NCBI RefSeq assembly: GCF_932294415.1
Contig: NC_065536.1
Span: forward strand, 4,102,974-4,166,973
Direction: 5' to 3'
Source: Quercus robur
Lineage: Eukaryota > Streptophyta > Magnoliopsida > Fagales > Fagaceae
Length of the DNA stretch: 64,000 nt
The position numbers were made by a program, and so were the translations under genes. The notes below the pieces were generated by a model. The model saw only the letters and a program-made list of their open reading frames with translations, was not told where the DNA came from and searched no databases. This document shows, piece after piece, positions 1,217 through 64,000 of this stretch. How positions within the stretch are numbered: position 1 is the stretch's first letter; every line of letters starts with the position of its first letter.

Positions 1217-1384
1217 CTAATTTGAGGTTTTTTTAAGGCTTGACTCTCTGAACTGGTGTCCTATTCTATTTTAGGGAGCTCAATGTGATTGCTTTTAGAT
1301 TTACCATTTATTTAATAATCTTTAGTTTCTTATAGCTTATATACCAAATATGAGACAAAAGATATATTTCTGGTAACTTTTACC

Positions 1385-1682
1385 AAAAGAGTCAATTCCG
1401 TACCGTATTGGGCAGTACCGTCGGAATATACCGTACCGGCAAGTAATCCAGTACATATAACCCCCCCTGTTTCGTACCGGAAAAAATACCGGTCGTACCG
1501 GCCGGTACCGAGTAGGGTCTAGTTAACCCACAAAAAACACAAGTCGAGTCACGGATTAACCCGTTTTTGCCTCAGGTAAAAAAAAAAAAAAAAATCAAGT
1601 TCGGGTCAGGTATTTTTCAGGTCGGGTCGAGTCGGGTTGGAAAATTTTGACCCGTTTTGCCATGTCTATTGTTATGGCCAAA
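1385..1682. mobile_element. MITE-like insertion in copy A (family uncertain)
   Basis: GC-richer than its surroundings and absent from the matching place in copy B. It holds several CGGTACCG-like palindromes at about 1400-1515 and then GGGTCGGGT strings ending in GACCCGTTTTGCCATGTCTA, a form common at one end of non-autonomous hAT elements. I could not find a convincing target duplication, and it may be two overlapping insertions. Confidence 0.35.
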
Positions 1683-2094
1683 GTAATTTTAGTAGTAGGC
1701 TCAAATTTGAATCAATAACAACTAACTAATTATGATTTATTATGGAAATGTTGTGGACACAACACTTCTTTTTCATTAAACGAACACATGACTTGTGGCA
1801 ATTTGTTGAGTTTAGGATGGCAAAAACAGTTCCAAATTTAAATCTTCTAAATATTGTGTACACCAAATTCATATTAAATTTTAAAAATTCTATCTTAAAT
1901 CCATTTTACTTTATTTAGCAAAATGTAGACCTGTCTATTTATCCTAATAACATGAGTCAAGTTGAACATAGCATACTACAAATGGTGGAATAGAAATCTA
2001 TTTATTTTCAGACTTTACAACCGAAAAAAGAAGATGCACTTAAAAAAAATAGAATCCCAATTTTTGTGTTATAAATTAAAATCTAGAATAAGAA

Positions 2095-2896
2095 TGTGGG
2101 GGCTAACTATCTAGAAGGTATTATTAAAACTGTATGAATTGGGTCTATGGCCCAATCCGAGGATATTATCCCATCCAAGGATAGTCAAATAAAGTTATAA
2201 TGGGAATGATATAAGAAGAAGACATAAAGATTGTATGTGATAGTTCAAAATACGTCTGAGGAGAAAAGTCATCTCGGAAACGGAGATTCAAGGTCAGTAA
2301 GAATGTCTTATCATCCTGAACACTCTTCAAGGTTGCATTACAACTAAGAGTCGGACATTGGATAAGAGATAAGCAAAGGGGAGGCAACAAATATCTTCAA
2401 AAGCTGCTACCTCCACGTTAAATGCCTCCCAACTAACTCTCTGGCCGCATTAATGTGGAGGTGATACATGAACAATGGTCAAGCAGCCTTACAGCTACTA
2501 GTTGATGGTTCTGGAAGGCGTTGGATGGGACAAGAAGGAGTTCCTAGAATCTAACCTACACGTGTATGGTAAGGATGATACCAAGATTATAGTATATAGC
2601 ATAGGAAGATGGCCTAAAGAAGGAGATCAGAAAAAATCAAGAAATCTTTGTAATAATATTGCGAACTCTTGTAACTTTGTTCATAAACAAGACATTACAA
2701 CATAGGCTCCTCAGGCCGTGCCGAAGACAGATTTTCTTATTTTACTTGTATTTAACAATCTTAATTCAGCAACTTTTATTGTCTTTCTTTTGGAGTAGAA
2801 TTAATTCTTTCACCCACGCTCTATAAATTCATTATTTGGGCTTGTTGGGCTGAAACCCAATCCTATACTGGGTCCAATCCAAATTCAGTCCTTACA
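2095..2896. mobile_element. Solo LTR of an LTR retrotransposon
   Basis: An 802-bp insertion begins TGTGGGGGCTAAC and ends CAGTCCTTACA, the TG...CA ends of an LTR. It is flanked on both sides by AAGAA (2090-2094 and 2897-2901). The duplicated copy B has a single uninterrupted site near 4926-4932, so the insertion came after the duplication. No internal retrotransposon region is present. Superfamily cannot be told from the LTR alone. Confidence 0.8.
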
Positions 2897-3343
2897 AAGA
2901 ATTATATCTACTAAATTTTGGTTAATTTTGATTTTAGTAATTGATGTTTAAAAATTTTGATTTTAATTGCTAGAGTTTTAGACCTTTTTTTTTTTTTTTG
3001 TAATTTCTAAATTCAATTATTGTAACTATCAATTTATTATATATAAAAAAAAAAATCCTAATAAAGGGAATTTATTCCACTATATGAGTGTAATTCACTA
3101 ACTTGAGTAGATGGACGGGATTAAACAAAGTAAAGTATATCCCTGGTTTCCTTATTGTCCACAAGTAATTATCCCTAAAAAATAAAAAATAAATAAAAAA
3201 ACTCCCTTATTATCCACGAGACTAGCATCTGTTAACATGACCTATAATAATATACCAATATTGTATATTGAACAGAGATGGGAATCGATCTAGTTCAGGA
3301 GTCTTTGTAAACTTAAATATAACACTTTTCTTTCTTTTGTATA

Positions 3344-13294: not shown

Positions 13295-13551
13295 TCCCAA
13301 GTTTTGATTGACATTGAAGAGAAGGAAACTTCACTCAACACCATAGTGAGAAGCTTGCAATTGCTTTTGGACTACTTAACACAACACCGGAAACAGCCAT
13401 CCATGTTGTGATTAATTGAGGATGTGTGAGGAATGCCATTCAGTCATAAAGCTTGTTTCTAAAGTTTACAACTGAGAGAGAATTGTGAGGGACTGTGTGC
13501 ACTATCATCATTTCAAAAATGGAAGATGTTCATGCCAAGGATTATTGGTAA
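13295..13551 (+). pseudogene. DYW-type PPR tail, unit 1
   Basis: Only the C-terminal part of a DYW-class pentatricopeptide gene is left. Translations in shifting frames give SEKLAIAFGLLNTTPETAIHV-like residues, then a CHSVIKLVSK-like stretch, and the terminal DYW followed by TAA at 13549-13551. Against the other two copies there is a stop within the region matching NNLRVCEDCH and an extra C just before the DYW codons. The PPR repeats themselves are missing, apparently by a deletion joining about 13240 to 13295. Confidence 0.75.
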
Positions 13552-15024
13552 GGTCTCCTTAAGAAAGTTGGGGGGTGTCAATGTGGTGAGGAAGCAGAAA
13601 CAGCAGAGGTTAGCAATGGAAAATTTGATCCAAACCCCCAACGAACAGAACAGAACCAATGATTTCAAATGGAGATGGTATACTTTAAGATTGAAAAAAA
13701 AGAGAAGATTTTGTTGAAATCTAAATTCCTGCCCAACTTGATCACATGTTGATAGAGAAGAACCCAACTAAAAAATGACATTATAGTTTTATGTTCCTGC
13801 CATACTTGGTGGCATGTTAATAATGATTGAGAAGACACCGACTTCTAAAACATGAAAACTAGACTCCCGGAATAGACATATGCATCATTGATGACCTGGA
13901 CAGGTCAACAAGAGAACCCTTCTCTTAGAAAAAAATTCTAATTCTGACAAACTACTTGATCCTGCCTGCTATTAATTTATAAACACACGAATAAGCTTAT
14001 ATATGCAATCTAAGCATGAATATATGGAGAAGAAGGAGGTCATTACAGAGTGTGAATTGTGTAGCAAGTTAGTGCCAGGAAGAAAATTGAATACAGTAGG
14101 GTTTTTTTTTTTTTTTTTTTGGGGGGGGGGGGGGGGGGTTGTTGTTGTGTGTGCGGCTTGTATAGTCAGATTTTGGATTTGGCTATTACTTATTTACATT
14201 GGCGTTATGTTTTATTGAGGCAACCTGGACAGTTTTACTTGTTTAGGCATGGAATCAACTCTTGGAATCCCATGAGTTCAAGAACAGAAGTTGGGAAGTT
14301 ATATTGAAACAGAAATTATTAGCCTTCTGGACTTTTTTCATTAGGAATATCTAAACAAGTTTAAAAAAGAGTCAAGGTTGCATATAAACTTAGTAGTAAA
14401 TTATTCCTTTTACCTGGTCTTATTCATTTTCATTTCAGAGAGTACTCTACACATTCCATGGTAGTGCTATCAGAAGATCTATCATATTCAAGCATTCCTT
14501 TTCTGTAGGCTTCCATCTTAACTAAGACTAAAAGAATTCAAAACTTGATTAGCTGAGGAAATTTTGCCACTTAATAGTCAGAGATTTTCTATTTATTTCC
14601 ACCCACTTTCATTTGTAATAGAGATTGACGTATCTTTAATCAGAAAAGATAGTTTTAATGCACCTTGAGTCTCTCTGAGCACTTCCAGCTACTGATGATA
14701 AAATCTGTATATATGGCCTTTCAAGTTATGTTACCCTCCAAACAGAATGATCAAAATATTACCTTTATTCGTCATCCCTACATACTATATCACACCAAAC
14801 CATACAAGTGATGATTTTATTTCATTACAGTGATTTACACATAGGTACAGGGACAGGAGGCTATACAACCATGATAAACTAATGATAGAAGTTACAAATC
14901 ACATATGGGATGCTTTACTTATATGCTAAACAGCACAGAAGAAAACATCAAAGATGTGATATAAACCTATTGTGACATATTTTGCCACACTATCTCTGTT
15001 TTATACCATAGTATACATATTAAT

Positions 15025-15378
15025 TCACACCTTCTCACAATCTGGTTTTGTAGGCTGGCATTCTGTTATATAAAGATGGTGTCTCTCAGTCGATGATCCT
15101 GAAGGATTTCCATAACTTTTATAACTCTCATTCTTATCATCCTCACTGTCGTTATCTTCGTCGGAAGTGTTGCTTTCCTTGTTCTTATTATTGGCATCAA
15201 CTGTTGGCACTGAACCTAATTTTGGATTTCCCTTTGTGCTTGACTTCTCAGGTTGATTATTTGGCTTTACATCAGTTGCACCATTGGTCACCTCTTCTAA
15301 GAGAAACCTTTTGGCATCACCTTGGATACAAAGCAAGAGTAATCCACAAGCACCCAGAACCACAAATACTGTCTTCAT
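15025..15378 (-). CDS. Small secreted protein, tandem copy 1
   Basis: A 117-aa protein of no family I recognise. Residues 1-22 (MKTVFVVLGACGLLLLCIQG) form a signal peptide, so secretion is expected. The middle is hydrophilic, rich in Asn, Ser, Lys and Asp (NKNKESNTSDEDNDSEDDKN). The C-terminal part, SYGNPSGSSTERHHLYITE after a change of one Gly to Lys ahead of it, is the best conserved segment among the three copies. Two Cys lie near the end. The ATG at 15378 was chosen because a splice acceptor (GTGCAG, ending at 15386) lies just upstream; upstream in-frame extension would begin with TTG. The matching donor is at 15510-15509. The neighbouring PPR gene is broken while this frame is open. It could be a peptide precursor; that is inference. 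Confidence 0.72.
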   Translation of the reverse strand: MKTVFVVLGACGLLLLCIQGDAKRFLLEEVTNGATDVKPNNQPEKSSTKGNPKLGSVPTVDANNKNKESNTSDEDNDSEDDKNESYKSYGNPSGSSTERHHLYITECQPTKPDCEKV

Positions 15379-15578
15379 GATTAACCTGCACTTAAAAACC
15401 AATTAGTGAATTTTATGAGCAGTTTAAGCAACCGAACCAAGATTAACATATAATTTAACAATGCAATTACAAATCAAATGAAACAAACAATGTTGAACAT
15501 CTTGGAGCACCTTATCTTCTTTCTTGGTTTCTATTAGATGCAGATGATGAATATTGAACTCAAGGACAAGAATTTATA
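15379..15578 (-). promoter_or_regulatory. TATA box, leader exon and 5'-UTR intron of copy 1
   Basis: On the minus strand TATAAATT lies at 15571-15578, followed by a leader exon ending GAAGATAAG at 15511, a 125-base intron (15510-15386) and the acceptor seven bases ahead of the ATG. The same arrangement is present in both other copies, which supports the gene model. Confidence 0.6.
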
Positions 15579-16904
15579 GAAGAAATGTCTTTGCTTAATC
15601 ATGATCAGTAGGAAAGTAAAATTTTGAATGCAGGCACTAAGAGTTGAAATTTTAGTGGAGCAAGCACAATTTCTTGCCCTTATTGGGAAGAACTGTGCAC
15701 GTGTGCTCAAAATTTGACAACCAAAGTACTTACTATGAAAATGTGTAAATAATCAGTGGAGATTTTCAGTGATGGCGTGAGAATTACATGGTGTTATTAC
15801 TGTTGTAGTCTGATTATGTTGAATTTATAGGGTTCCACAAGTAAGTGGTATATGTAGCATACAGTTTATCATCACTATGTGTGTGCCTGTGCTATTCATG
15901 GTCCAATAGTGACTGAAGGATAGAATTATAATGTCATGAATCTAATTAATCATCCTAGAATTTATCTGGCTTTTGTCAAATTATAGACAACTTGCTTCTT
16001 CACCTAAGAGGAATAGTTATCACCTAAAATTCCAAAATTGAGAAAATTACAAATTCAAATTCTACAGGCTCTAGGAAATGTCCCAAAACAGAAGGGACCT
16101 TATTTTGAATTTTAAATTGAAATTTATAATAAAAATAAAAAATATAAATAGTAAAAGCGACTAATTAAAGGCCAGAATGAAAGAATTTGACCAACAAGCA
16201 GCGTATAGGTCATGACCTTAAGGCAATGAATTTTGATCCTCATGACGATTTCCTTTTAAGTTGCCAAATGTCACGTGATTCTGTATGTTGACTCAAATGA
16301 TTTCAAGTAGTTCTTTTCTACTTTCTAAACTTCTTGCATGTTTGACTTCTGACGGACTCTGACTTCAAGGAAAGTCTTTGATGTCTGTTATGCATCATTT
16401 CTATGTAGCCAAGTTGTCACAAAGTATCGAGGGATGTTGGCTCAGTTCATTGTTTCTTCAATTTTAATGTGCAAGGTGATTAAACAATATTTTCTTAAAC
16501 AGTTTGGCTCAGTTCATTTTTCTTAAGTTATAGAATTTGGAATTATGTAGAAGGATGGATTGAAAAATCCTTTAACACATGCCACATGGTTATGGAAGCA
16601 GCCAATCATATGAGGACCACATGCTTGCCAACAATACAAATGGATGTGGCCTGACATCTATATCTTGTCTTAGTCAATACTCGATAGCAAAGGAAAGATG
16701 AACACAACAATGACAACCACAAAAGCACACCCGCCTCCAAACTCTCCCAGAAAACATTCCTAGACTTGTTAAACACAAAGTGCTGCACTTCATTGCACCA
16801 TATAAAGCAAGCTCATTGCATTATACTAAGGAGTGGCCACATTAAAGACCATCAAATAGCTGACACCTAAATAAAATGCCATGCAAATCCTCATTTCAAC
16901 AACT

Positions 16905-18356
16905 TTGGCTTTGCTTTGAAGGTCTTTGATTATGTCCTGAATCCCAATGTTTTTGTATGGAATATTGTGATCAATGGATGTCTAGAGAACAATGAACTAA
17001 TTGAGGCTATTTCATTTTATCATAGAATAATATTGGCAAATTCTAGGCCTAATAAGTCCCACTCTGTTCAAGGCTTTCACCATTGCTTGTGCCATTCAAG
17101 AATGCTTGAAATTTCATTCAAATGTGTTGAACCATGGCCTTAGTGAAGATGGATACAAAAAAAGTGCTGGAATTCAAATGTACGCATCTTTTGGATGTGT
17201 TAGGGAGGTGAGATGAATGCTTTATCAGGGTGGAGACTCAGATGTTATTTGTTGGAATACTTGAAATGTGGAGATGTGAAAGCTGCTAAAGAATTATTTG
17301 AGCATATGCCAAATAAGAATATTGGCTCTTGGAATGCAATGATCAATGGTTTAGCTAAACTTGATATGATTGAAGTGGATAGGAAATTGTTCGATGAAAA
17401 GGAAAAAAGGGAGGATGAAATATCTTGGACTGTATTATAAATGGTTATATAAAAGGAGGGTATTTCATGGAGGCCTTCGAAGTCTTTAATAAAAAGCGAT
17501 GAGAAAAAATTAGGCCAAGATATCAAGTGTGCTAACTGCCTGTGCCCATGTGGGGGCACTTGATAAAGGAAGGTAGATTCATGCTTATGTTGAAAGGGAT
17601 TCCATGCACTTGCATGCAGTTCTAGGGACTGCTTTGGTGGATATGTACGCCAAATGTGGGCGTCTTGATATGGCATGGAAGGTTTTTGAGAAGATGAAAC
17701 TGAAAGAAGTCGTTGCTTGGAATGCCATGATAGGTGGGCTTGCTATGCATGTCCAAGCTGAGGATGCAATTGAGTTATTCTCCAAGTTGCAAAGGGAAAA
17801 TTTGAAGCCTGATGTAATAACTTTTGCGGGTGTTTTAAATGCTTCTTCTATTTCAGGAATGATTAATGAAGGTCTAGCAGTTTTGGATTCTATGAACAAA
17901 GGCTGGGAGATGGGATGATGTTGTGAAAATTAAAATATTGTTGAAGGAGAGAGGGATAAAGACTACTCCTGGGAGTAGCATGATAGAGTTGGATGGCACA
18001 GGTGATGGTTCACATATCACATACACAAAATAAGCAATCTGCTTGATGCTAAAAGGATCTTTGAGAGACAACATATGGAAGGTTATTCACAAAACAACTC
18101 CCAATTTTGATTGACATTGAAGAGGATAAGGAACTGCACTTCAATCCCATAGTGAGAAGCTTGCAATTGGTTTCAGACTACTTAACACAACACCGGGAAC
18201 AACCATCCATATTGTGAATAATTTGAGGGTGTGTGAGGACTGCCATACAGTCATGAAGTTCATTTCAAAGTTTACAACTGAGAGATTATTGTGAGGGAAT
18301 TTGTGCACTCTCTTCATTTCAAAAATGGAAGATGTTCATGCAAGGATTATTGGTAA
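16905..18356 (+). pseudogene. DYW-class PPR gene, unit 2, broken
   Basis: Relic of a PLS-DYW pentatricopeptide protein, a family that edits RNA in plastids and mitochondria. Recognisable blocks in order: VFDYVLNPNVFVWNIVINGC, AAKELFEHMPNKNIGSWNAM, ALVDMYAKCGRLDMAWKVFE, DAIELFSKLQRENLKPDVIT, then NLRVCEDCHTVMKFISK and a final CSCKDYW with TAA at 18354-18356. These lie in different frames separated by stops and shifts (for example the frame from 17213 ends at 17440, and a TGA follows TTERLL near 18290), so no full protein can be made. Part of the C-terminal E region is also missing after 17918. It is the longest of the three copies. Confidence 0.85.
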
Positions 18357-18627
18357 GGCCTCCTTAAGAAAGTTGAGGGTGTTAATGTGGTGAGGAAACA
18401 GAGACAACACAGGTTAGTAATGGAAAATTTGATCCAAACCTCCAACAAACAGAACAATACCAACAGTTTCAAATGGAGATGGTCTACTTTTAAGATTGAA
18501 AAAGAAGATTTTGTTGAAATCTAAATTCCTGCCAAACTTGAGGGCATGTTGATAGAGAAGAATTCAACTAAGAAATGACACTATAGTTCTAAGTTCCTGC
18601 CAAACTGGGTGGCATGTTGATAATGTT

Positions 18628-18930
18628 GGATTAAGATCCCGTGCAGTAGCCCTCAATGGCTGAGATTGACAATTAAAAAAAATAAATAAATAAAAAATAA
18701 AATAAAATTTTAATCTCAGTCCTTGGATTAGAAAAGTTTTTAACTTTTTAACCTGTTAGCTTTTCTGATTCAAAGGCTGAGATTAAAAGGCAATTCTTTA
18801 ACTCTCAATCTCTGCCATTGAGATGCAATTGCATCCCATGCAATATCCTATTAGAAAAGTTTTTAACTTTTTAACCTGTTAGCATCCCATGCAATATCCT
18901 AGGTATTGCATGGGATCTAAATCTGATATT
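18628..18930. mobile_element. MITE-like insertion in unit 2
   Basis: About 300 bases present in unit 2 but absent at the matching place in unit 1 (near 13820). The left end carries GATTAAGATCCCGTGCAGTA and the right end, reverse-complemented, GATTTAGATCCCATGCAATA, which are related inverted repeats. Inside, a segment ending AACCTGTTAGC is doubled (18730-18770 and 18850-18885). No clean target duplication was identified. Confidence 0.55.
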
Positions 18931-20191
18931 TATAGACAAAACTAACTTTCAAAAACATGAAGACTATATTCCTGAAGTAGACATATATATCAATGCTTGC
19001 CTGTGCAGTTCAACAAGAGAAACCTTGATTTAGACAAGGTTTTTGTACTGACAAACTACTTGGGCCTGCCTGGTATTAGTTTATACACACATGAACATGT
19101 TGATTTGTGCATGAATATATGGAACAGTGGGAAGCAATTACACAGTATGTATTGTGTTGCAAGTTATTTCCAGAAAGATAATTGAATAAAGAACAATTTT
19201 TTTGGGGGCATGTATAATCAGATTTTGGATTTGGTTAGTAATTCCCTAGATTCCTTTTGAATAGGACAGCTGATAATGGGGCTGCAGAACTTTGGAATGA
19301 TGACTCTCAATCTCTCCATCCCATGCAATATACTAACACATCTTGGACAATTTTACTTGTCAGAGCTTATGTATAATTGTTGAAGGCAAGTAAGGCCTTC
19401 ATTATGAGTGAAATGATCATCATGTGACTCTTGGAATCCCATGAGTATGGACAGAAATTGGAAAGTTATATTGAAACTGAAATAATTACCCTTCTGGATT
19501 TTTTTGGTTAGGAATATCTAAACAAGTTTAAATAAGAGTCAAGTTGGCATATAAACTTTGAAAACTGTAAATTATTCTTGTATTATTCCTTTTCATTTCA
19601 GAGAGTATTCTACACATTCCATGGTAGTGGTATCAGAAGATCAAGCATTCCTTTTCTGTAAGGTTCCATCTTAACTAAGACTCTAATTATTCAAAACTTG
19701 ATTGGAAGGGGGAATTTTGCTGCTTTAAAGTCTCAGAGATTTTCTATTGCATTCCAATCACTTTCATTTGTCATAGAGAAGGATGTTACTTTAATCAGAA
19801 AAACAATTTTAATGCACCTTGAGTCTCTCCGAGCACTTCCAGCTACTGATAACAAAATCCATATATATGGCCTTTCTAGTTAGGTTACCTTTCAGACAGA
19901 ATGATCTAAATATTTCTTTTTATTTATCATCCCTACATACTATATCACACCAAACCATACAAGCCATGGTTTTGTTTCTATATTGTGATTAACACAAAGT
20001 TACTGAGCCGGGGGGCCATACAACCATGACAAACCATTGATAGAAGGTTGCAAATCACATATGAAATTCTTTACTTATACACTAAACACATCAAAGATGT
20101 GATCAAACCTACTGTGAAATTTTTTCCACACTATGTTCATTTTTTTATGATAGTTGACATATTAATTCACACCAACTTCTTCATGGAAAGC

Positions 20192-20536
20192 TCAACAATT
20201 TTCTTGATAAGGCTGGAATGCAGTTATATAATTATAGTGTCTCTCAGTTGATGATCCTGAAGGATTACTATAACTTCCATAGCTCTCATTCTTATCATCT
20301 TCACTGTTGTTATCTTTGTTGGAAATGTTGCTATCCTTGTTCTTATTATTGGAATCAACTGCTTGCACTGAACCTGATAGTGGATTGCCCTTTGTGCTTG
20401 ACTTCTCAAGTTGATTGGTTGGCTTTACGTCAGTTGCACCATTGGTCACCTCTTCTAAGAGAAACATTTTGGCATTACCTTGAATGCAAATCAAGAGTAA
20501 TCCAAAGGCAAATAGAACTACAAGTATTGTCTTCAT
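20192..20536 (-). CDS. Small secreted protein, tandem copy 2
   Basis: A 114-aa paralogue of the proteins at 15025 and 24005. It begins with a signal peptide (MKTILVVLFAFGLLLICIQG), then MFLLEEVTNGATDVKPTNQ, a hydrophilic Asn/Ser/Asp/Lys middle and the conserved SYGSYSNPSGSSTERHYNYI. One of the two C-terminal Cys of the other copies is changed (TAF in place of TEC), so a conserved disulphide there is unlikely. The frame is fully open although the PPR gene of the same unit is broken. The ATG at 20536 follows the acceptor of a 5'-UTR intron (20649-20544). Confidence 0.72.
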   Translation of the reverse strand: MKTILVVLFAFGLLLICIQGNAKMFLLEEVTNGATDVKPTNQLEKSSTKGNPLSGSVQAVDSNNKNKDSNISNKDNNSEDDKNESYGSYSNPSGSSTERHYNYITAFQPYQENC

Positions 20537-20713
20537 AATTAACCTGCACTTAAAATCAATAAGTGAATTACCAAACAAAGATTAAAATATATTTTAACAA
20601 TGCAATTACAACTCAAATGAACAAAACAATGTGGAAGACCTTGGAGCACCTTATCTTCTTTCTTCTATTAGATGCAGATGATGAATGTTGAACTTAAGAA
20701 CAAGACTTTATAG
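20537..20713 (-). promoter_or_regulatory. TATA box and 5'-UTR intron of copy 2
   Basis: A TATAAAGTC string lies near 20705-20713 on the minus strand. The leader exon ends GATAAG at 20650, and the 106-base intron runs to the acceptor at 20545-20544. Confidence 0.55.
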
Positions 20714-21337
20714 AAGAAATGTCCTTGCTTAATCATTATTAGTAGGAAGGTAAGATTTTGAATGCTGGCACTAAGAGTTGAAAATATTAGTGGAGCAAAC
20801 ACAATTTCTTGCCCTTATTGGGAAGATTTGTGCACGTGTGCTCAAAAGTGGGTGACCAAAGCAGTAACCAGGAAAATGTATAAAGCAGCCATGGAGATAT
20901 TTCAATAATGGTGTGAGGATTACATGGTGTTATTAATATTGAAGTCTGATTAGGTGGCCATTATACGGTTCAACAAGTGGTATATGTATGCCTGTGCTAT
21001 TCATGGCCAAATAGTGATTGAAGGATGACAGAATTTTAATGTCATTAAACAATTTGCTCCTTCACCTAAAAGTTACAAAAATTAAAAACGAACTTAACTT
21101 AAGATTTGGGATGTTTGGGCTATTTGGTCCATATATATTTCACCTTTAATTCAAAATTAATCTTGGCTTATATTACCCCGACCATTAGGCCCCTTGAGCA
21201 GCTCACCAACCCAAAATGCAGAATAAATTAAAATATAAAACTAAAACAGGAAAGAGAGAGAAAGGGAGAGAGAAGAGAGAAAAACAAAATAGAGTAGTCA
21301 CCAAGTGGATAACGCAGTAATGCACATGTGGTGAAAC

Positions 21338-22678
21338 ATGGATTAGTGGAGATGGACAAATAAATAGTGTTGGAATTCAAATGTATGCGTCTTTTGGACG
21401 TATTAGGGAGGCTAGATGAATGCCTGATGAGGGTGGAGAATTGGGTGTTGTTTGTTGGAATGAGATGGTTAATGTTTACTTGAAATTTGGAGAGTTGGAA
21501 GCTGCTAAAGAATTATTTGAGCATATGCCAGATAAGAATGTTGGCTCTTGGAATGCAATGATCTTTTGCTAAATGTAATATGATTGAAGTGGCTGGGAAA
21601 TTGTTCCATGAAACAGACAAAAGGGATGACATATCTTGGACTGCTATTATAGACGGTTATATAAAAGGAGGCCTTGGAAATTTTTAATGAAATGTGAAGA
21701 GAGAAAATTAGGACAAGAAAATTTGACTTGTCAAGTGTGCTAACTGCCTGTGCCCATGTGGGGGCACTTTATCAATGAAGGTGGATTCATGCTTATGTTG
21801 CATGGAATTCCATGCACTTGGATGCAGTTCTAGGACCTGGTTTGGTGGATATGTATGCCAAATGTGGGAATCTTGACATGGCATGGAAGGTTTTTGAGAA
21901 GATGAAGGAGAAAGAAGTCTTTACTTGGAATGCCATGATAGGAGCTCTAGATATGCATGGCCGAGCTAAGGATGCAATTGAGTTATCCTCTAAGATGCAA
22001 AGGGAAAAGTTGAAGCCTAATGGAATAACTTTTGTGGGTGTTTTAAATGCTTGTGCTACTTCAGGAATGATTGATGAAGGTCTAGAAGTTTTGGTATTGA
22101 GACTCAGATAGAGCATTATGTTTGTGGGCTCTTGGCAGAGGCAGAGGAGCTTATAAATTCAATGCCTATAGAACCCAATGCAGCTGTTTACGAGCACTCT
22201 TGCATCCCTGTAAAATACATGGAAATTTTGAATTGGGTGAAGGAGTGGGGAAGCTACTGCTTGAATTGGAACAAGAAAGTGATGGACATTATGCATCATT
22301 GTCAAATATCTATTCCAAGGCTGGAAATGGGAGATGGTTCACATCCACAAAATAAGCAAACCTACTTGATGTTGGAAAGGAACTTTGAGAGGCTTCATAT
22401 GGAAGGTTATAAAAACTTCCCAAGTTTTGATTGACATTGAATAGGAGAAGGAAACTGTACTTCAACACCATGTTGAGAAGCTTGCAATTGCTTTTGGACT
22501 ACTTAACACAACACTGGGAACAACCATCCATATTGTGAATGATTTGAAGGTTTGTCAGGAATGCTATTCAGTCACAAAGCTCATTTCAAAAGTTTACAAA
22601 AGAGAGATAATTGTGAGGGACTGAGTGCACTATCATCATTTAAAAAATGGAAGATGTTCATGCAAGGATTATTGGTAA
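21338..22678 (+). pseudogene. DYW-class PPR gene, unit 3, broken
   Basis: Third copy of the PPR gene. It starts with the equivalent of GIQMYASFG, then AAKELFEHMPDKNVGSWNAM, LVDMYAKCGNLDMAWKVFEK, KLKPNGITFVGVLNACATSG, an E-domain stretch (IHGNFELGEGVGKLLLELEQ in another frame) and the DYW tail ending in TAA at 22676-22678. Several stops and frame changes separate the blocks, including a stop after SWNAMI near 21570 and another after LVLRLR at 22111. It keeps the E region lost from unit 2, so decay happened separately in each copy. Confidence 0.85.
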
Positions 22679-23255
22679 GGTCTCTTTAAGAAAAGTTGAG
22701 AGTGTCGGTGTGAAGAGGAAGTAGAAACAGCATATGTTATTCATTGAAAGCTTGAGTCAGACTAGGGCCAACTCAATACATTTTGGGACATAAAGGCAAT
22801 TAATTGAAGTGGAGTTTTTTAATATTTAAATATTAATACTTAGATTGCCTGGTTTTAATTTATACATACGCTAACATGTTTATGATTGCAATGTATGCAT
22901 GGATATATAGCAAGTTTTTGCTAGGAAGAAAATTGAATAAAGTAAATTTTTTTTTTGGTAGTTAAATTGTGTAATCATATTTTGGATTAGGCTATTAGTT
23001 CCCTAGATTGCTTTTGAGTAGGGGGACTGATGCTGGTGCTGCAGCACTTTGGAATTATGTTTTATTAAAACATAAAATTATACTTGTTAGACCTTACGTA
23101 CATATGATTGTGGTAGGAAAGTAATGGCCTCTACATTATGAGTGAAATGACTACCATGAAGCTCTTGGAATCCCATGAGTAAAACAACAGAATTTGAGGT
23201 TTTATTGAAACTGAAATGATGAGGCTCTACATGATGAGTGTAATGCCTTCCACTT

Positions 23256-23257
<2 letters not shown>

Positions 23258-23296
<39 letters not shown>
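23258..23296. repeat. Poly-T run
   Basis: An unbroken run of about 39 T in the spacer of unit 3, at a place where the other units have only a short T run. Length is likely to vary and may be an assembly estimate. Confidence 0.9.
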
Positions 23297-23300
<4 letters not shown>

Positions 23301-24004
23301 AGGAACATCCAAACAAGTTAAAAAAGAGTCAAGGTTGCACATAAACTTTGACAGAAGTAAATTATTGCCTGTACCTAGTCTTATTCCTTTTCAATTCATA
23401 GGGTATTCTACACATTCCAAGGTAGTGTTATCAGACGATCTTTCATAATATTCAAGCATTCCTTTTCTGTAGGCTTCCATCTTAGCTAAGACTAAAATAA
23501 TTCAAAACTTGATTAGTAGGGAAAATTTTGCTGCTCAAAAGTCTAAGAGATTTTCTATTTCATCCCAATCACTATAGTTTTTCTTGGGAGATGGGTGTTA
23601 CTACAATCAGAAAACAAAGCTTTAATGCACCTTGAATATCTCTGAGCACTTCGAGCTATTGATAATGAAATCTGTATACATGGCCTTTCAAGTTATTTAA
23701 CCTTCCAGATAGAATGATCTAAACATTACTTTTAGTCATCATCCTTACATACTATATCACACCAAACCATACTAGCCATGGTTTTATTTCAGTATAGTGA
23801 TTAACGCATAGGTATTGGGCCAGGAGGCCATACAACCATGACAAACTATTGATAGAAGTTACAAATCACATATGACATGCTTTACTTATAAACTAAACAC
23901 ATCAAAGACGTGATACAAACCTAGTGTGAAATTTTTCCACACTACATTTATTTTTTACCATATTTTACGTATTAATTCCCACCATCTTCGTCATAGAAAG
24001 CTCA

Positions 24005-24349
24005 TTAACAACTTTTGTGATTAGGCGGACATTCAGTGTTATAAGTATGGTGGCTCTCAGTTGATGATCCTGATGGATTACCATAACTTCCATAACTGTC
24101 ATTCTTATCATCCTCACTTTTGTTATCTTTGTCGGAAGAGTTGCTGGCTGTGTTCTCATTATTGGCATCAACTGTTGGCACTGAGCCTGATATTGGATTG
24201 CCCATTGTGCTTGACTTCTCAGGTTGATTATTTGGCTTTACATCAGTTGCACCATCGGCCACCAAATTTAAGAGAATCCTTTTGGCGTCACCTTCGATAC
24301 AAAGCAGGAGCAATCCACAGGCAACTACAACTAAAAGTACAGTTTTCAT
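24005..24349 (-). CDS. Small secreted protein, tandem copy 3
   Basis: A 114-aa paralogue. It has a signal peptide (MKTVLLVVVACGLLLLCIEG), the conserved GATDVKPNNQPEKSST segment, an acidic and Ser/Asn-rich middle (NSSDKDNKSEDDKNDS) and the C-terminal SYGSYGNPSGSSTESHHTYN, ending with two Cys. Sequence between copies differs most in the middle and least in the signal peptide and this C-terminal block. The frame is open. The ATG at 24349 lies six bases after the acceptor of a 5'-UTR intron (24480-24357). Function is unknown. A possible reading is a secreted peptide precursor; a structural apoplastic protein is equally possible. Confidence 0.72.
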   Translation of the reverse strand: MKTVLLVVVACGLLLLCIEGDAKRILLNLVADGATDVKPNNQPEKSSTMGNPISGSVPTVDANNENTASNSSDKDNKSEDDKNDSYGSYGNPSGSSTESHHTYNTECPPNHKSC

Positions 24350-24548
24350 GATTAACCTGCACTTAAAACCAATAACAGAATTTTATGAGCAGTTAAAACT
24401 ACCAAACCAAGATTAAAGTATAATTCAACAATGCTATAACAACTCAAATGAACCAAACAATGTTGAACATCTTGGCGCACCTTATCTTCTTTCTCTGTTT
24501 CTATTAGATGCAGATGATGAATGTTGAGCTCAATGACAGGAATTTATA
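24350..24548 (-). promoter_or_regulatory. TATA box and 5'-UTR intron of copy 3
   Basis: TATAAATTC lies near 24541-24548 on the minus strand. The leader exon ends GATAAG at 24481 and the 124-base intron reaches the acceptor at 24358-24357. Confidence 0.55.
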
Positions 24549-25299
24549 GAAAAATTGTCTTTGCTTAATCATGATTAGTGGAAGGTAAGATTTTGAATGC
24601 AGGCAATAAGAGTTGATAATTTTAGTGGAGCAAACACAATTTATTGTTCTTATTGTGAAGGCCTGTGCACGTGTGCTCAAAAGTGGGCATCCAAAGTAGT
24701 AACTATGAAAATGTATAAATGATCAATGTAGATTTTTCAGTAAGGGTGTGAGAATTACATGGTGATACAAAAATTGTAGTCTGATTATGTTGCCATTATA
24801 GGGTTCAACAAGTAAGTGGTATATGTATCATACAGTTTACCGACACTATGTGTGTGTGCCTGTGCTATTCATGTTCCAATAGTGATTGAAGGGTGACAGA
24901 ATTATAATGTCATTAATCTTCTAAGAATTTATCTGGCTTCTGTCAAATTGAAAGCAACTTGCTGCTTCACCTCAAAGGTACAAAAATGAAAAACCAACTG
25001 AACTTAAAGATATGGGATGTTTGGGCCTTTTGGTCCTTATGTAGTTCACCTTCAATCCAGAATTAGTCTTGGCATTATTTTGACTCAGCCCATTAGGCCC
25101 TTTAAGCAGCCCACTCCAACCCAGAAGGCAGAATTAACTATTACCAAAACAGAACAAAAGAAAAAGAAGAAGAGCAATGCTATGACCACAATTTCTTACA
25201 CAACTTATCATATGATGAATTGTGAGTAGTAGAAGTGTGGACCCATATGGATCCATCACTTTTTCTTTACTATTATAGCAAGTTGTGGCAAAAGTTGTG

Positions 25300-46782: not shown

Positions 46783-47068
46783 ATAATAAAATAGTCTAGC
46801 CAATATATGATAACATACCTTATCAATCAGTATCATGTGATAAATCAGTATTAGTAGCCAAATCAAATTATGAAGTGCATCAATCTTATAAACCAGAATC
46901 AATCAATCAAAAAGAAACACAAGTAGAAGAAAATTCTTTAGCATTAGTAACCCGAATGAGACAAAATTAAGTGATATGAAACCAGATAATGAAATAAATA
47001 AATTGATATTAGCCGCACAATATCAAGATTTTAGAAGTAATAAAAAAAATATATAAGAATAAGAAATA

Positions 47069-47632
47069 TAATCATGTGAAGCATTAATCACGTGATAAGT
47101 TTTCTTCTGCAAAAGTCTTAATCACGTGAAGCACAGGTATCGACCTTATCTCTTCGAATCAAAATTATTCGATTCGGTATCAATTTTCATCAAATAAATC
47201 AAAATAATTCAAGCTTTTCACTATTTAGTATTAGAAGAATTAGCTTTGCAGAAGTATTAATCATATTTTTTAGTGGGGAGAAGTATTATTGTTATTTTTA
47301 CTTTTTTCAGTCTCAGTATCAGAAATTATATATATATATATATATATATATAATCATGTGAAGCATTAATCATGTGATAAGTTTTCTTCTGCAAAAGTCT
47401 TAATCACGTGAAGCACGAGTATCGGCCTTATCTCTTTGAATCAGAATTATTCGATTCGGTATTAGTTTTCATCAAATAAATCAAAATAATTCAAGCTTTT
47501 CACTATTTAGTATTAGAAGAATTAGCTTTGTGGAAGTATTAATCATATTTTTTAGTGGAGAAAAGTATTATTGGAATTTTTACTTTTTTCAGTCTCAGTA
47601 TCAGAAATTATATATATATATATATATATATA
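47069..47632. repeat. Head-to-tail 282-bp duplication with CACGTG motifs
   Basis: Copy 1 (47069-47350) and copy 2 (47351-47632) are nearly identical and each ends in a TA run. Each starts TAATCATGTGAAGCATTAAT. Copy 1 has two CACGTG palindromes (near 47090 and 47123) and copy 2 keeps one (near 47406), the other having become CATGTG. CACGTG is the G-box bound by bHLH and bZIP factors. The block lies about 2 kb ahead of the bHLH coding region. Confidence 0.85.
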
Positions 47633-59991: not shown

Positions 59992-62900
59992 CTAGAGCAA
60001 ACTTAAGAGATTGTTTGCAATAAGATAAGAAGCATAAGCATCATGAATGGCATACTTGACCTGTTCATGTGAAAAAACCCTAGCACCCCAATCTGAGAAA
60101 GTAACACTTTTTGGCTCCTCATAGTACACCCCAACTTCACTAGCTAACTCAACTAAACCACACCCATCAAGGTTAGGCTTCTTAAGCACCCTAGCAGCCA
60201 AATGACCCAGTTCCACACCAGTAGGGGTGGCAAATGGGCGGGTTGGGTCATAAATGGGTTGGGTCATAGATGGGTTGGATGTATAATTATCCATTTATCC
60301 ATTTATGACCCGTATATATATAAATTAATTATCCATTACCAACCCAACCCATTTAATTAGTAACCCACCCATTTAACCCAATATGACCCAAATACCTCTA
60401 AAACTACTTGAATATACTCTTGACCTCCAAAATACCCATAAATACCTAAAATGATGCAAATACCTCTAATCTGCCAAAATTACCAATATACCCTTGGACA
60501 TCCAAAATTATCCCCAAAATGTCCCAAAACTCAAAAAATGACCAAAATACCCCCGAAACCTAAAAATTACCAAAATACCCCCCAAAACCTAAAAATTGAC
60601 CAAAATACCTCCAAAACCTAAAAATGACCAAAATATCCCCAAAACCCAAAAAATGACCAAAATACCCTCAAAACCCAAAAAAATGACCAAAATACCATCA
60701 AAACCTAAAAATGACCAAAATACCTCCGAAACCCAAAAAATGACCAAAATACTCTCAAACCTGAAAATGACCAAAATACCCCTTAAACCCAAAAAATTAC
60801 CAAAATACCCCCGAAACCTAAAAATGACCAAAATACTTCCAAAACCCAAAAAAATGGCCAAAATACCCTCGAAACCCAAAAAATGACCAAAATACCCCGA
60901 AACCTAAAAAATTACCAAAATACCCCCGAAACCCAAAAACTGACCAAAATACCCCCAAAACCCAAAAACTGACCAAAATACCCCCAAAACCTTAAAATTA
61001 CCAAAATGCCCTCGAAACCCAAAAAATGATCAAAATACCCCAAAACCTAAAAATGACCAAAATACCCCCGAAACCTCAAAAAATACCAAAATACCCCCGA
61101 AACTCAAAAAATACCAAAATACCTCCGAAACTCAAAAAATACCAAATATCCTTGAAATCCAAAAAATGACCGAAATATCCTCGAAACCTAAAAATGACCA
61201 AAATACCACCGAAACCTAAAAAATTACCAAAATACCCCCGAAACCCAAAAACTGACCAAAATACCCCCAAAACCTTAAAATTACCAAAATGCCCTCGAAA
61301 CTCAAAAAAAGATCAAAATACCCCAAAACCTAAAAATGACCAAAATACCTCCAAAACCTCAAAAAATACCAAAATACCCCCGAAACTTAAAAAATACCAA
61401 AATACCTCCAAAACTCAAAAGATACCAAATATCCTTGAAACCCAAAAAATGACCGAAATATCCTCGAAACCTAAAAATGACCAAAATACCACCGAAACCT
61501 AAAAAATTACCAAAATACTTCTAAACCCTAGAAATTTACCGAAATAACCCTAAAACTAAAAGATGACAGAAATGCCCTCGTAACCTAGAAAATGCTAAAA
61601 TACCCTTAGAATCTAAAAGATGATCAAAATAACCCCGAAACCTAAAAAATTACCGAAATTCCCTCGAAACCTATAAAATGAATGAAAGACTCTTAGAACC
61701 TTTAATTTGTCAAAAATATCCTTGAAACATCCAAAATATCCCGAAACCTCTATTTCGGTAATTTTAGATGTTTCAGGTGTATTTTGGTCATCTTACATGT
61801 TTAGGGGCATTTTGGTCATAATTTGGGTTTCAGGGGTTTTTATCGATCATTTTTTTAGGTTTTTGGGTTATTTTGGTATTTTTTTTAAGGTTTTTGGGGG
61901 TATTTCGATCATTTTTTAGGTTTCAGGGTATTTTGGTAATTTTTTTAGGTTTCTGGGGTATTTCAATTATTTTTTAGGTTTTAGAGGTATTTCAGTCATT
62001 TTTTAGGTTTATGGAGTATTTTGGTAATTTTTTAGGTTTAGGGAGTATTTTGGTAATTTTTTAGGTTTTGGGTGTATTTTGGTAATTGTTAGGTTTTGGG
62101 GGTATTTTGGTCATTTTTTTTTTCGGTTTTTGGGGTATTTTGGTCATTGTTTTAGGTTTTGGGGTTATTTTAGTAATTTTTTAGGTCTTGGGGTATTTTA
62201 ATCATTTTACAGGTTTCAGAGGTATTTTGATCATTTTTTAGGTTTCGGGGGTATTTTTGGTAATTTTAAGGTTTCAAAAGTATTTCAGTCATTTTTAAGG
62301 TTTAGGAAGCATTTTGGTCATTTTTTAGGTTTTTAGGGTATTTTGGTAATTTTTGGGTTTTGGGGATATTTTGGACATTTTAGAGGTTTGGGGGGGGGTA
62401 TTTTGCTCATTTTAGAGGTTTTGGAGGTATTTTTCTCATTTTGGGGGTTTTGGGGGTATTTTGGTCATTTTTTGGATTTTGAGGGTATTTTGGTCAGTTT
62501 TTGGGTTTTGGGGATATTTTGAACATTTGAGAGGTTTTGGGGGGTATTTTAGTAATTTTTAGGTTTTAGGGGTGTTTTGGTCATTTTTTGGGTTTTGGAG
62601 GTATTTTGGTCATTTTTAGGTTTCGGGGGTATTTTGGTCATTTTTTGGGTTTTGGTGGTATTTTAGTAATTTTTAGGTTTTAGGGGTGTTTTGGTCATTT
62701 TTTGGGTTTTGGAGGTATTTTGGTCATTTTTAGGTTTCGGGGGTATTTTGGTCATTTTTTGGGTTTTGGGGGTATTTTGGTCATTTTTTTGGGTTTCAGG
62801 GATATTTTGGTCATTTTTTTGGTTTTGGGGGTATTTTGGTCATTTTTAGGTTTTGAGGGGTATTTTGGTCATTTTATAGGTTTCAGGGGTATTTTGGTCA

Positions 62901-63584
62901 TTTTTTGGGTTTTAGGGGTATTTTGGTCATTTTTTGGGTTTTAGGGGTATTTTGGTCATTTTTTAAGTTTCAAGGGTATTTTAGTCATTTTTTAGAAATT
63001 TAGATTTTATGTTGTTTATTTAAATTTTAGATGGGTTTAGTGGGTATTAGTGGGATTATCCATTTAGACCCATTTAATTAAATAACCAAATGGGTCTTTA
63101 CCCATTTAACCCAAATATTCAAATGGGTTGGGTTAAGACTTATCCAAATAAGGTAGGTAATGGGTGGGTTCATGGATATGGATAAAAATTGCCACCCCTA
63201 CACACCAGTCTTACAACCGAACATCTGGGGCCATTGTAGTATTTTCTTGACCTTATCCTTCACTCCAATGCCAACGAAACACACATTTGAATCACTCAAA
63301 AATTTCTTGATGGATTCAGGAAATGAATCCAAGTAGTATAATTGAACTATAAGACAGCGAGTCCCAATACAAAGGATCAATAACATTGCACCATTGCAAT
63401 TGGGTTTGCACTTGATATCAAATGCCACAATAGGTGCAACCAAAGGCTTTTCAAAGGAAGACCTTAGCTCATCAATATGAGCATCTACTAGAACAGCACG
63501 GTCCACTACACTTGCCTTTACATAAACTCCTTGTATTTCTATTTCATACAGGCACATTTTGGATAGGAGAGAAATGGGAATCAT
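59992..63584 (-). pseudogene. WRN-type 3'-5' exonuclease-like gene, split by a transposon
   Basis: A single-exon host gene whose halves are 63584-63201 and 60213-59992. Leaving out the inserted element and one copy of its 8-bp target gives 606 bases, 201 aa, joining ...MFGCKTGV to ELGHLAARVL... without a break. The fold is the DnaQ/RNase H-like 3'-5' exonuclease of Werner-syndrome-like plant proteins: VAFDIKCKPN (ExoI, residues 53-62), FVGIGVKDKVKKI (ExoII, 103-115) and VKYAIHDAYASYLI (ExoIII, 180-193). Of the usual DEDDy metal ligands, D56, Y182 and D186 are present, but the Glu of DxE is K58 and the ExoII Asp is K111, so enzyme activity is doubtful even without the insertion. As it stands, translation of the 5' half meets a stop (TAG) in the element's first three bases. 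Transcript removal of the element by splicing cannot be excluded. Confidence 0.85.
60222..63200. mobile_element. Fold-back hAT-like DNA transposon with minisatellite arms
   Basis: The element of 2,979 bp has 12-bp perfect terminal inverted repeats (TAGGGGTGGCAA) and a perfect 8-bp target duplication, CACACCAG, at 60214-60221 and 63201-63208. Eight-base targets and such ends point to the hAT superfamily. Subterminal ATGGGTTGGGT-type repeats occupy about 60230-60400 and 63025-63175. The left arm (about 60500-61735) repeats a unit of 28-30 bases, GACCAAAATACCCCCAAAAC plus CTAAAAAT; the right arm (about 61760-62995) has the same unit in reverse complement. The arms meet at a tip, CCGAAA cctcta TTTCGG, at 61741-61758, near the element's midpoint. 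No transposase is encoded. Reading frames in the arms are repeats of YFGNFLGF type and are not genes. Confidence 0.92.
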
Positions 63585-64000
63585 AGTGTTTTTTTAGCTT
63601 CTAACCTTCACCCTAGCTAGGCATGATGAGGAAGCACTAGCTGTATTGTACGTGTTAGTTTATAGAAGTGAGAGTTTGGTGGTTTGGTGGCAACTGAACT
63701 TCAATTACTTTCTGCTCATTTAAGTTGTCTTATTAGTTTAATAAAGACAGTAAAATGTCTTATTATATAGTTGGTAAAATTTCTTGATGTTACACCTGAA
63801 TCTCAGAGTTCTCTCATTTTTATTGAAACAGATAATGAAGAGCTTCCAAATTTTAAAAACAATGAATATTGAGTTACTTGGTAAAGTCTTTTAACATCAC
63901 ACATGAATCTTTCAATCAAATAATACTTTTGAAACGTAAATTCATAAAATGTCTTACTAGTTGGTAAAGTTTTTTGATGTTGCACTTGAACCTTAAAATT
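63585..64000. other. Upstream flank of the exonuclease-like gene
   Basis: AT-rich sequence with the probable promoter on the minus strand. No further gene is recognised to the right edge. A weak direct repeat, TAGTTGGTAAA(A/G)TTT, occurs at 63768 and 63959. Confidence 0.4.

Follow-up and report, generated by a model that had tools for sequence, protein, structure and literature searches.

What kind of sequence carries two opposed minisatellite arrays, ends in short inverted repeats and lies within the reading frame of a host gene? This question is raised by positions 60222-63200 of the window, i.e. the whole 64,000-nucleotide stretch of Quercus robur DNA analysed here (contig NC_065536.1, positions 4,102,974 to 4,166,973 of the forward strand). 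Our analyses suggest that this sequence is a non-autonomous hAT-type transposon of fold-back build, a reading to which we assign a probability of about 0.88 on the basis of sequence comparisons.

Structure of the element and its insertion site

The element spans 2979 bp and is bounded by perfect 12-bp terminal inverted repeats (TIRs), TAGGGGTGGCAA at 60222-60233 and its complement at 63189-63200, the 13th base being mismatched. Exact copies of TAGGGGTGGCAA within the 64-kb window are confined to these two ends, and the 8-mers on both sides of the element are CACACCAG, i.e. a perfect 8-bp target-site duplication (TSD). Tandem Repeats Finder (TRF) resolves the interior into a left arm of period 29 with 40.3 copies (60533-61681) and a right arm of period 29 with 42.7 copies on the opposite strand (61751-62995), the consensus 29-mers of both arms being nearly identical and in opposite orientation. 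At the centre, CCGAAA-CCTCTA-TTTCGG (61741-61758) can be read directly as a 6-bp stem with a 6-base loop. Aligned with its own reverse complement the element shows approximately 80% identity over 2.5 kb, and the RNA fold predicted for the whole element is a single hairpin with 1109 of 1218 predicted pairs spanning the centre and a minimum free energy (MFE) of -1493 kcal/mol, a raw value without shuffled baseline. The fold-back class is defined by long inverted arms made of tandem subrepeats whose number varies from copy to copy; here the arms (approximately 60523-62995) occupy most of 60222-63200, and the unit number differs between copies as described below. A hAT transposase is absent from the window element, in which the longest open stretch covers 110 amino acids and five stretches, repeat-derived as judged by eye, have no Pfam match. 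The features are as follows:

59992-60219, minus strand: downstream part of the interrupted host frame, with the PF01612 match and the stop codon
60214-60221, no strand: left TSD CACACCAG, present as a single copy at the empty paralogous site
60222-60233, plus strand: left 12-bp TIR TAGGGGTGGCAA, exact match
60234-60522, plus strand: left subterminal region, a subfamily A end whose first 200 bp are rich in GGGTT/AACCC, with degenerate units further in
60523-61740, plus strand: left arm with about 40 copies of the 29-bp minisatellite unit, oriented as CCAAAATACC... and degenerate in the innermost units
61741-61758, no strand: centre with the stem-loop CCGAAA-CCTCTA-TTTCGG, the flanking centre sequence being found again in other copies
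61751-62995, minus strand: right arm with about 43 copies of the 29-bp minisatellite unit, reversed relative to the left arm (TRF)
62996-63188, minus strand: right subterminal region, a subfamily A end with 5 GGGTT/AACCC motifs
63189-63200, minus strand: right 12-bp TIR, exact match
63201-63208, no strand: right TSD CACACCAG, exact match
63201-63593, minus strand: upstream part of the interrupted host frame, 3'-5' exonuclease-like

The original prediction, made from the letters of this DNA, had placed a fold-back transposon at exactly these coordinates with the same 12-bp terminal repeats and perfect 8-bp duplication; its two opposed arms of roughly 40 units and its stem-loop at their meeting point are likewise borne out, with arms that are approximately 80% alike, and its hairpin of more than 1 kb, if transcribed, agrees with the predicted fold.

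The element broke the reading frame of a 3'-5' exonuclease-like gene by insertion, making the 8-bp TSD. With one target copy retained, the joined flanks form a single open frame on the minus strand, which is closed by a stop codon, encodes 201 amino acids and matches PF01612 (3'-5' exonuclease) at residues 39-199 with an E-value of 1.1e-9; the downstream half alone matches PF01612 with an E-value of 2.3e-7 and the upstream half gives no match. A protein search of the genome with the joined frame resulted in 37 matches, 21 of which lie on contig C3 at 4.16-4.42 Mb, and the interrupted gene is a member of an approximately 250-kb tandem cluster of 3'-5' exonuclease-like genes (C3:4162968-4414826). 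Its closest uninterrupted paralogue (C3:4201089), 35 kb off, shows 79% protein identity and has two in-frame stops of its own. At the nucleotide level this paralogue is 93.9% identical to the joined flanks and carries a single CACACCAG exactly at the join, and since it thereby represents a natural empty site, 2979 bp plus one 8-mer were inserted. In-frame stops are also present in several other members of the cluster.

Copies of the element across the genome

Whole-genome numbers given here are pattern counts and not curated copies, and all pairings and distances refer to the 100 places listed for each pattern. The 12-mer end occurs at 559 and 610 places, compared with 34 and 36 for a reversed-pattern control, and these 1169 places against 70 support that it marks a large group of elements. 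The more specific patterns, i.e. a 38-mer of the left end (176 places) and a 40-mer of the right end (147 places), both with up to 3 mismatches, and a 35-mer of the centre (123 places), gave no match with reversed-pattern controls, and neither did the control for a unit-dimer pattern found at 1338 places.

The 100 left and 100 right ends listed form 51 facing pairs within 15 kb, of which 37 are 2.65-3.7 kb long, 6 are 1.15-1.56 kb, 4 are 2.15-2.62 kb and 4 are longer, including pairs of 4415 bp and 6608 bp. A listed centre lies inside 43 of these pairs; of the eight that lack one, six are the shortest pairs of all and the other two measure 2151 bp and 3073 bp. The 41 copies that could be measured have 41 different lengths, with the left end 933-2919 bp (median 1336) and the right end 1200-2257 bp (median 1650) away from the centre, and the two arm distances are uncorrelated (Spearman 0.007, p 0.97), keeping in mind that long distances may include nested insertions. 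The genome search for ends and arm lengths proposed with the original prediction has thus been carried out, and the outcome named there as refuting, that no other copies share ends and unit, does not hold: many places share ends and centre, and the copies read share the unit. Misassembly of a single locus cannot explain 43 dispersed end pairs sharing a centre, with all 41 measured copies differing in length. Viewed from the centres, both A ends are listed within 5 kb for 41 of the 100, the left end only for 6, the right end only for 15 and neither for 38. A 10.9-kb end pair at C3:432622 was considered as a possible autonomous A-ended element and rejected, as it turned out to be a two-armed copy whose left end contains a nested insert of approximately 7.7 kb of other DNA.

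From the 100 listed places of the 12-mer we read 10 facing pairs and 30 of the 80 remaining single places. Two opposed arms were present in 7 of these 40 loci (L022, L026, L027, L028, L049, L056 and L057) and one arm in L058; for the 10 facing pairs, the duplication is 8/8 in seven, 7/8 in one and below 7 in two. Further loci read were L059/L062, L060, L061, L063 and L064, resulting in 12 two-armed copies with both ends read, L058 being excluded as its other side is lacking. A ends are found in the window copy, L022, L026, L028, L057, L061 and L059/L062, and B ends in L027, L049, L056 and L064, while L060 has an A end on the left and a B end on the right. The TSD is a perfect 8 bp in 6 of the 12 (window copy, L022, L026, L028, L061, L059/L062); it is 6/8 in L056 and L057, shows a register-shifted match by eye in L027, L049 and L064 and is 2/8 in L060. 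Two-armed copies counted, L060 excluded, have approximately 26-63 units per arm. L063 and L064 had been chosen by eye from unit-dimer places with no listed end near, and both are TIR-ended elements (2/2). Within the DNA nested in the left end of one fold-back copy, L059 carries tandem repeats of about 80 bp that are approximately 97% identical to one another (1310-3229).

The sequence around GGTAATTTTAGA(T/G)G lies at the centre of 6 of 7 A copies, L057 being the exception, and of L027, L049 and L056. As the centre is common to both end types, the inverted body either predates the divergence of A and B or was exchanged between them. The centres of L064 and L057 resemble this sequence by eye when read in reverse complement, of which only L064 had been read in the opposite orientation, and the body of L057 (101-2895) aligns better when inverted in 3/3 comparisons (1876 vs 1676, 1895 vs 1778 and, barely, 1765 vs 1758). 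With this modest alignment support, the L057 body may be inverted relative to its ends, as recombination between opposed arms could give. L060 (101-3100) is a rearranged, chimeric copy in which approximately 0.8 kb of unrelated DNA sits close to the right end; its mixed ends fit an exchange between A and B.

Variation of the arms and relatives without two arms

Over the first 240 and last 230 bases, the ends of five A copies (window copy, L022, L026, L028, L061) are 96.6-98.3% identical; those of L057 are more divergent (89-91%), and this copy stood outside the indel comparison. The 10 pairwise alignments of the five contain 92 indels of at least 15 nt, which are not independent events as the alignments share copies, and none of these lies outside the arrays. 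The length of 65 of these indels deviates by no more than 3 nt from a multiple of 28.6, compared with approximately 24% expected for random lengths, and a period of about 29 stands out most strongly. When one arm is compared between copies, its units are strongly colinear (3/3 copy pairs, both arms). Within a copy, the unit order of left and right arm agrees 1.5-2.6 standard deviations above the shuffle mean in the five copies, exceeding all 40 shuffles in 3/5. A recent inverted duplication of one expanded array was considered as the source of the two arms and rejected, the left and right order being little better than that of shuffled units. The simplest reading of these alignments is that transposition distributed the two-armed body, after which units were gained and lost in each arm separately.

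Some elements with these kinds of ends lack the pair of arms. The A-ended L036, L044 and L040 have TSDs of 7/8, 8/8 and 8/8 and armless bodies of 1.2 kb; L036 and L044, which are 91.7% identical along their whole length, contain a common cargo, and the L040 cargo differs. With B-type ends, L021 (1115 bp) carries about 3 units at one end followed by other DNA, and L063 (2717 bp, TSD 6/8) has just one array, 14.4 units long by TRF, ahead of other DNA. Such elements may represent intermediates, or else two-armed copies that have decayed and exchanged material. The internal DNA of the short A- or B-ended elements (L036, L044, L040, L021) is unrelated, and the cargo resembles captured genomic sequence.

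Assignment to hAT and a candidate helper

Elements of the hAT type have 8-bp TSDs and short TIRs with a consensus start of YAGGG. The 8-bp duplication is seen in the window copy (8/8), at the empty site and as perfect duplications in 6/12 two-armed copies, and TAGGGGTGGCAA at both ends agrees with the TIR start. Mutator elements usually make 9-bp TSDs, and the duplications here are 8 bp. Miniature inverted-repeat transposable elements (MITEs) are usually shorter than about 800 bp, whereas the window copy has 2979 bp and 37/51 listed end pairs measure 2.65-3.7 kb; the family is otherwise MITE-like in being non-autonomous, TIR-ended and present in many copies. The hAT part of the earlier label 'hAT-type MITE' is supported by the 8-bp TSDs and by L024, a transposase-bearing element with the same ends, while the MITE part is better replaced by a non-autonomous fold-back element of approximately 3 kb.

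L024 (5331 bp) has the same 12-bp ends as the window element and a TSD of 8/8, and contains three open stretches with zf-BED (PF02892), hAT RNase-H-like (PF14372) and hAT dimerisation (PF05699) domains. An element like L024 is likely the kind of helper used by the fold-back family. The original prediction had called for a search for an autonomous hAT element with the same ends: L024 is a candidate by its 12-bp ends and domains but differs from subfamily A in its subterminal DNA. Upstream of its coding region, L024 holds a sequence of about 380 bp repeated directly with 94.5% identity (1200-1980).

Both elements have ends enriched in GGGTT/AACCC, a motif that was picked after viewing the ends: the window ends hold 7 motifs on the left (shuffle mean 1.5, p 0.003) and 5 on the right (shuffle mean 1.9, p 0.033), the L024 ends hold 5 and 5 (p 0.013 and 0.007), and the rest of the window has 0.27 per 200 bp. 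Among 24 ends of 12 elements, p exceeds 0.05 in 7, i.e. both ends of L027 and one each of L057, L019, L036, L040 and L030. The transposase of Ac binds subterminal AAACGG repeats (PMC3260210), and by analogy the GGGTT/AACCC motifs are putative transposase sites. The 29-bp unit was also considered, from its look, as a piece of an L024 end and this was rejected as unproven (best match p 0.144; hidden Markov model score 5.3 vs 5.4 for window background). In 14 elements with no arms or almost none (28 ends), a unit-like match reached p≤0.05 only at one L021 end (0.005), followed by an L036 end (0.055).

Proposed origin, alternative explanations and significance

As a model for the hAT-type fold-back transposon, a 29-bp unit just inside one end would have been multiplied, and the resulting array would have come to face an inverted counterpart across a short centre. 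The whole hairpin-forming unit would then have been moved by cut and paste, with the hAT transposase of an L024-like element acting in trans and recognising the TIRs and the GGGTT-rich subterminal stretches. Each arm would afterwards have grown and shrunk separately, by unit-step slippage or unequal exchange.

Several observations weigh against this interpretation. L024 has subterminal DNA unlike that of subfamily A ends and none of the elements read combined a transposase with A ends, which is why we infer the helper; an origin of the unit in the transposase-bearing element is not supported by the best L024 match. Neither A end is listed near 38/100 centres, which unlisted ends, other end types or decay can explain, and 6/12 two-armed copies have no perfect TSD. 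A degenerate array directly outside the right end of L060 indicates that not every array sits inside an element, and the weakly mirrored unit order within a copy indicates that left and right arm are not close mirror copies.

Rather unlikely in our judgement is that the element acts mainly as a source of hairpin RNA, with read-through transcripts that would be diced to 21-24-nt small RNAs silencing the family or nearby genes. The predicted fold with 1109/1218 pairs across the centre and an MFE of -1493 kcal/mol is consistent with this, and hairpin transcripts of MITEs can be substrates for 24-nt small interfering RNAs according to a 2025 review (PMC12595863). Against this, the arms are merely approximately 80% alike, and hairpin RNA would be a consequence of the array structure, giving no account of its origin.

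We consider it doubtful that the arms are functional as extra transposase-binding sites aiding synapsis or specificity and kept by selection, as proposed for Galileo, in which tandem repeats in the long TIRs hold further THAP binding sites (PMC3688188). Long two-armed copies outnumber short ones, with the centre in 43/51 listed end pairs, which speaks for such a role, but armless A-ended copies have good TSDs (L044 8/8, L036 7/8, L040 8/8), so that the arms seem not to be needed for movement, and a unit-like site in the L024 ends is not significant. Similarly improbable, in our view, is a hAT lineage whose body turned into a self-complementary hypervariable minisatellite kept by selection, with the arrays offering the transposase a platform of many sites or yielding hairpin RNA that triggers silencing or acts as a decoy in it. 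If the arrays were kept in this way, each new copy would be a mobile variable number tandem repeat, its repeat dose being set independently for each arm.

A fold-back element of Mutator type is very improbable: most fold-back elements seem to belong there and Tetris, with TSDs of 8-10 bp, was put there (PMC4079207), but the TSDs are perfect 8-mers in 6/12 two-armed copies and the TIR is shared with a transposase-bearing element having hAT domains. That the locus is no transposon at all but an ordinary minisatellite pair or an assembly artefact can practically be dismissed. In its favour are the difficulty of assembling repetitive arms, the commonness of minisatellites and the degenerate array outside the right end of L060; against it, the paralogous empty site has one TSD copy, dispersed places share ends and centre with controls of 0, and L063 and L064, chosen with no listed end near, are both TIR-ended.

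The non-autonomous hAT-type transposon of fold-back build remains our preferred interpretation, and it adds a likely hAT case to the idea of a repeated rise of fold-back structure in different transposon superfamilies. Dozens of dispersed copies differing by whole units, a few armless and one-armed relatives and a likely helper within one genome provide a natural system for the birth and growth of arms, which is also suited to asking whether arms aid transposition or whether long hairpins feed small-RNA silencing. Every insertion carries a possible length-variable marker.

Other features of the window

At 13326-24856, segments recur as three direct copies at spacings of 3.8-5.2 kb; they share 62-92% identity, a pattern like that of a gene or repeat triplicated in tandem. 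Positions 47066-47629 hold a sequence of 282 bp that is duplicated directly in tandem with 95% identity.

Comparison with known fold-back and hAT systems

Foldback (FB) of Drosophila is a non-autonomous element with long inverted arms containing tandem repeats in copy-variable number, and plant fold-back transposons reportedly include FARE, Tnr8 and the elements of Rebatchouk and of Narita. We did not find a hAT element with inverted minisatellite arms in the open-access literature, most subscription papers being outside this scope, and among the 20 of 31 matches listed, three papers contained the terminal 12-mer and one its complement, none of them on transposons as judged by title. The original prediction had not recognised the form of this element: fold-back arms of tandem repeats are known, mostly from other superfamilies, and what stands is that a hAT family built in this way was not found in the open-access literature.

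Tetris of D. virilis, assigned to Mutator by its authors, has homogeneous repeats of approximately 220 bp, three structurally complete copies and TSDs of 8-10 bp (PMC4079207). Like the window family it is non-autonomous with long inverted arms and a tandem-repeat number differing between copies; it differs in the approximately 220-bp repeats and the Mutator assignment, compared with 29-bp units, dozens of copies and a hAT element with the same ends here. The same paper describes fold-back elements as mostly of Mutator type, with exceptions, and cites the suggestion that the structure may evolve independently in each lineage (PMC4079207). In Galileo (P superfamily, Drosophila), the tandem repeats of one TIR can expand or contract independently of those in the other TIR of the same copy (PMC3573991), and the uncorrelated arm lengths suggest the same for the window family, whereas Galileo is P-type with a repeat of approximately 210 bp described in up to three copies (PMC3573991). 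Tm1 of root-knot nematodes, comprising histone-hairpin, MITE-like and transposase-encoding groups, resembles the family in its composite TIRs with a short repeat (approximately 14 bp) in variable number, but has 9-bp TSDs and was classed by its authors as Mutator/Foldback (PMC3169594).

Within hAT, the maize Ds and Ds-like elements are non-autonomous and resemble the autonomous element in their short TIRs, 8-bp TSDs and subterminal motifs while their filler is unrelated, a pattern that the short elements L036, L044, L040 and L021 fit as well; a fold-back minisatellite body is not described in the accessible text of that report (PMC3260210). Fold-back elements with tandem-repeat arms are already known as such, and a hAT family with 29-bp units and dozens of copies fits among them as a new variant.

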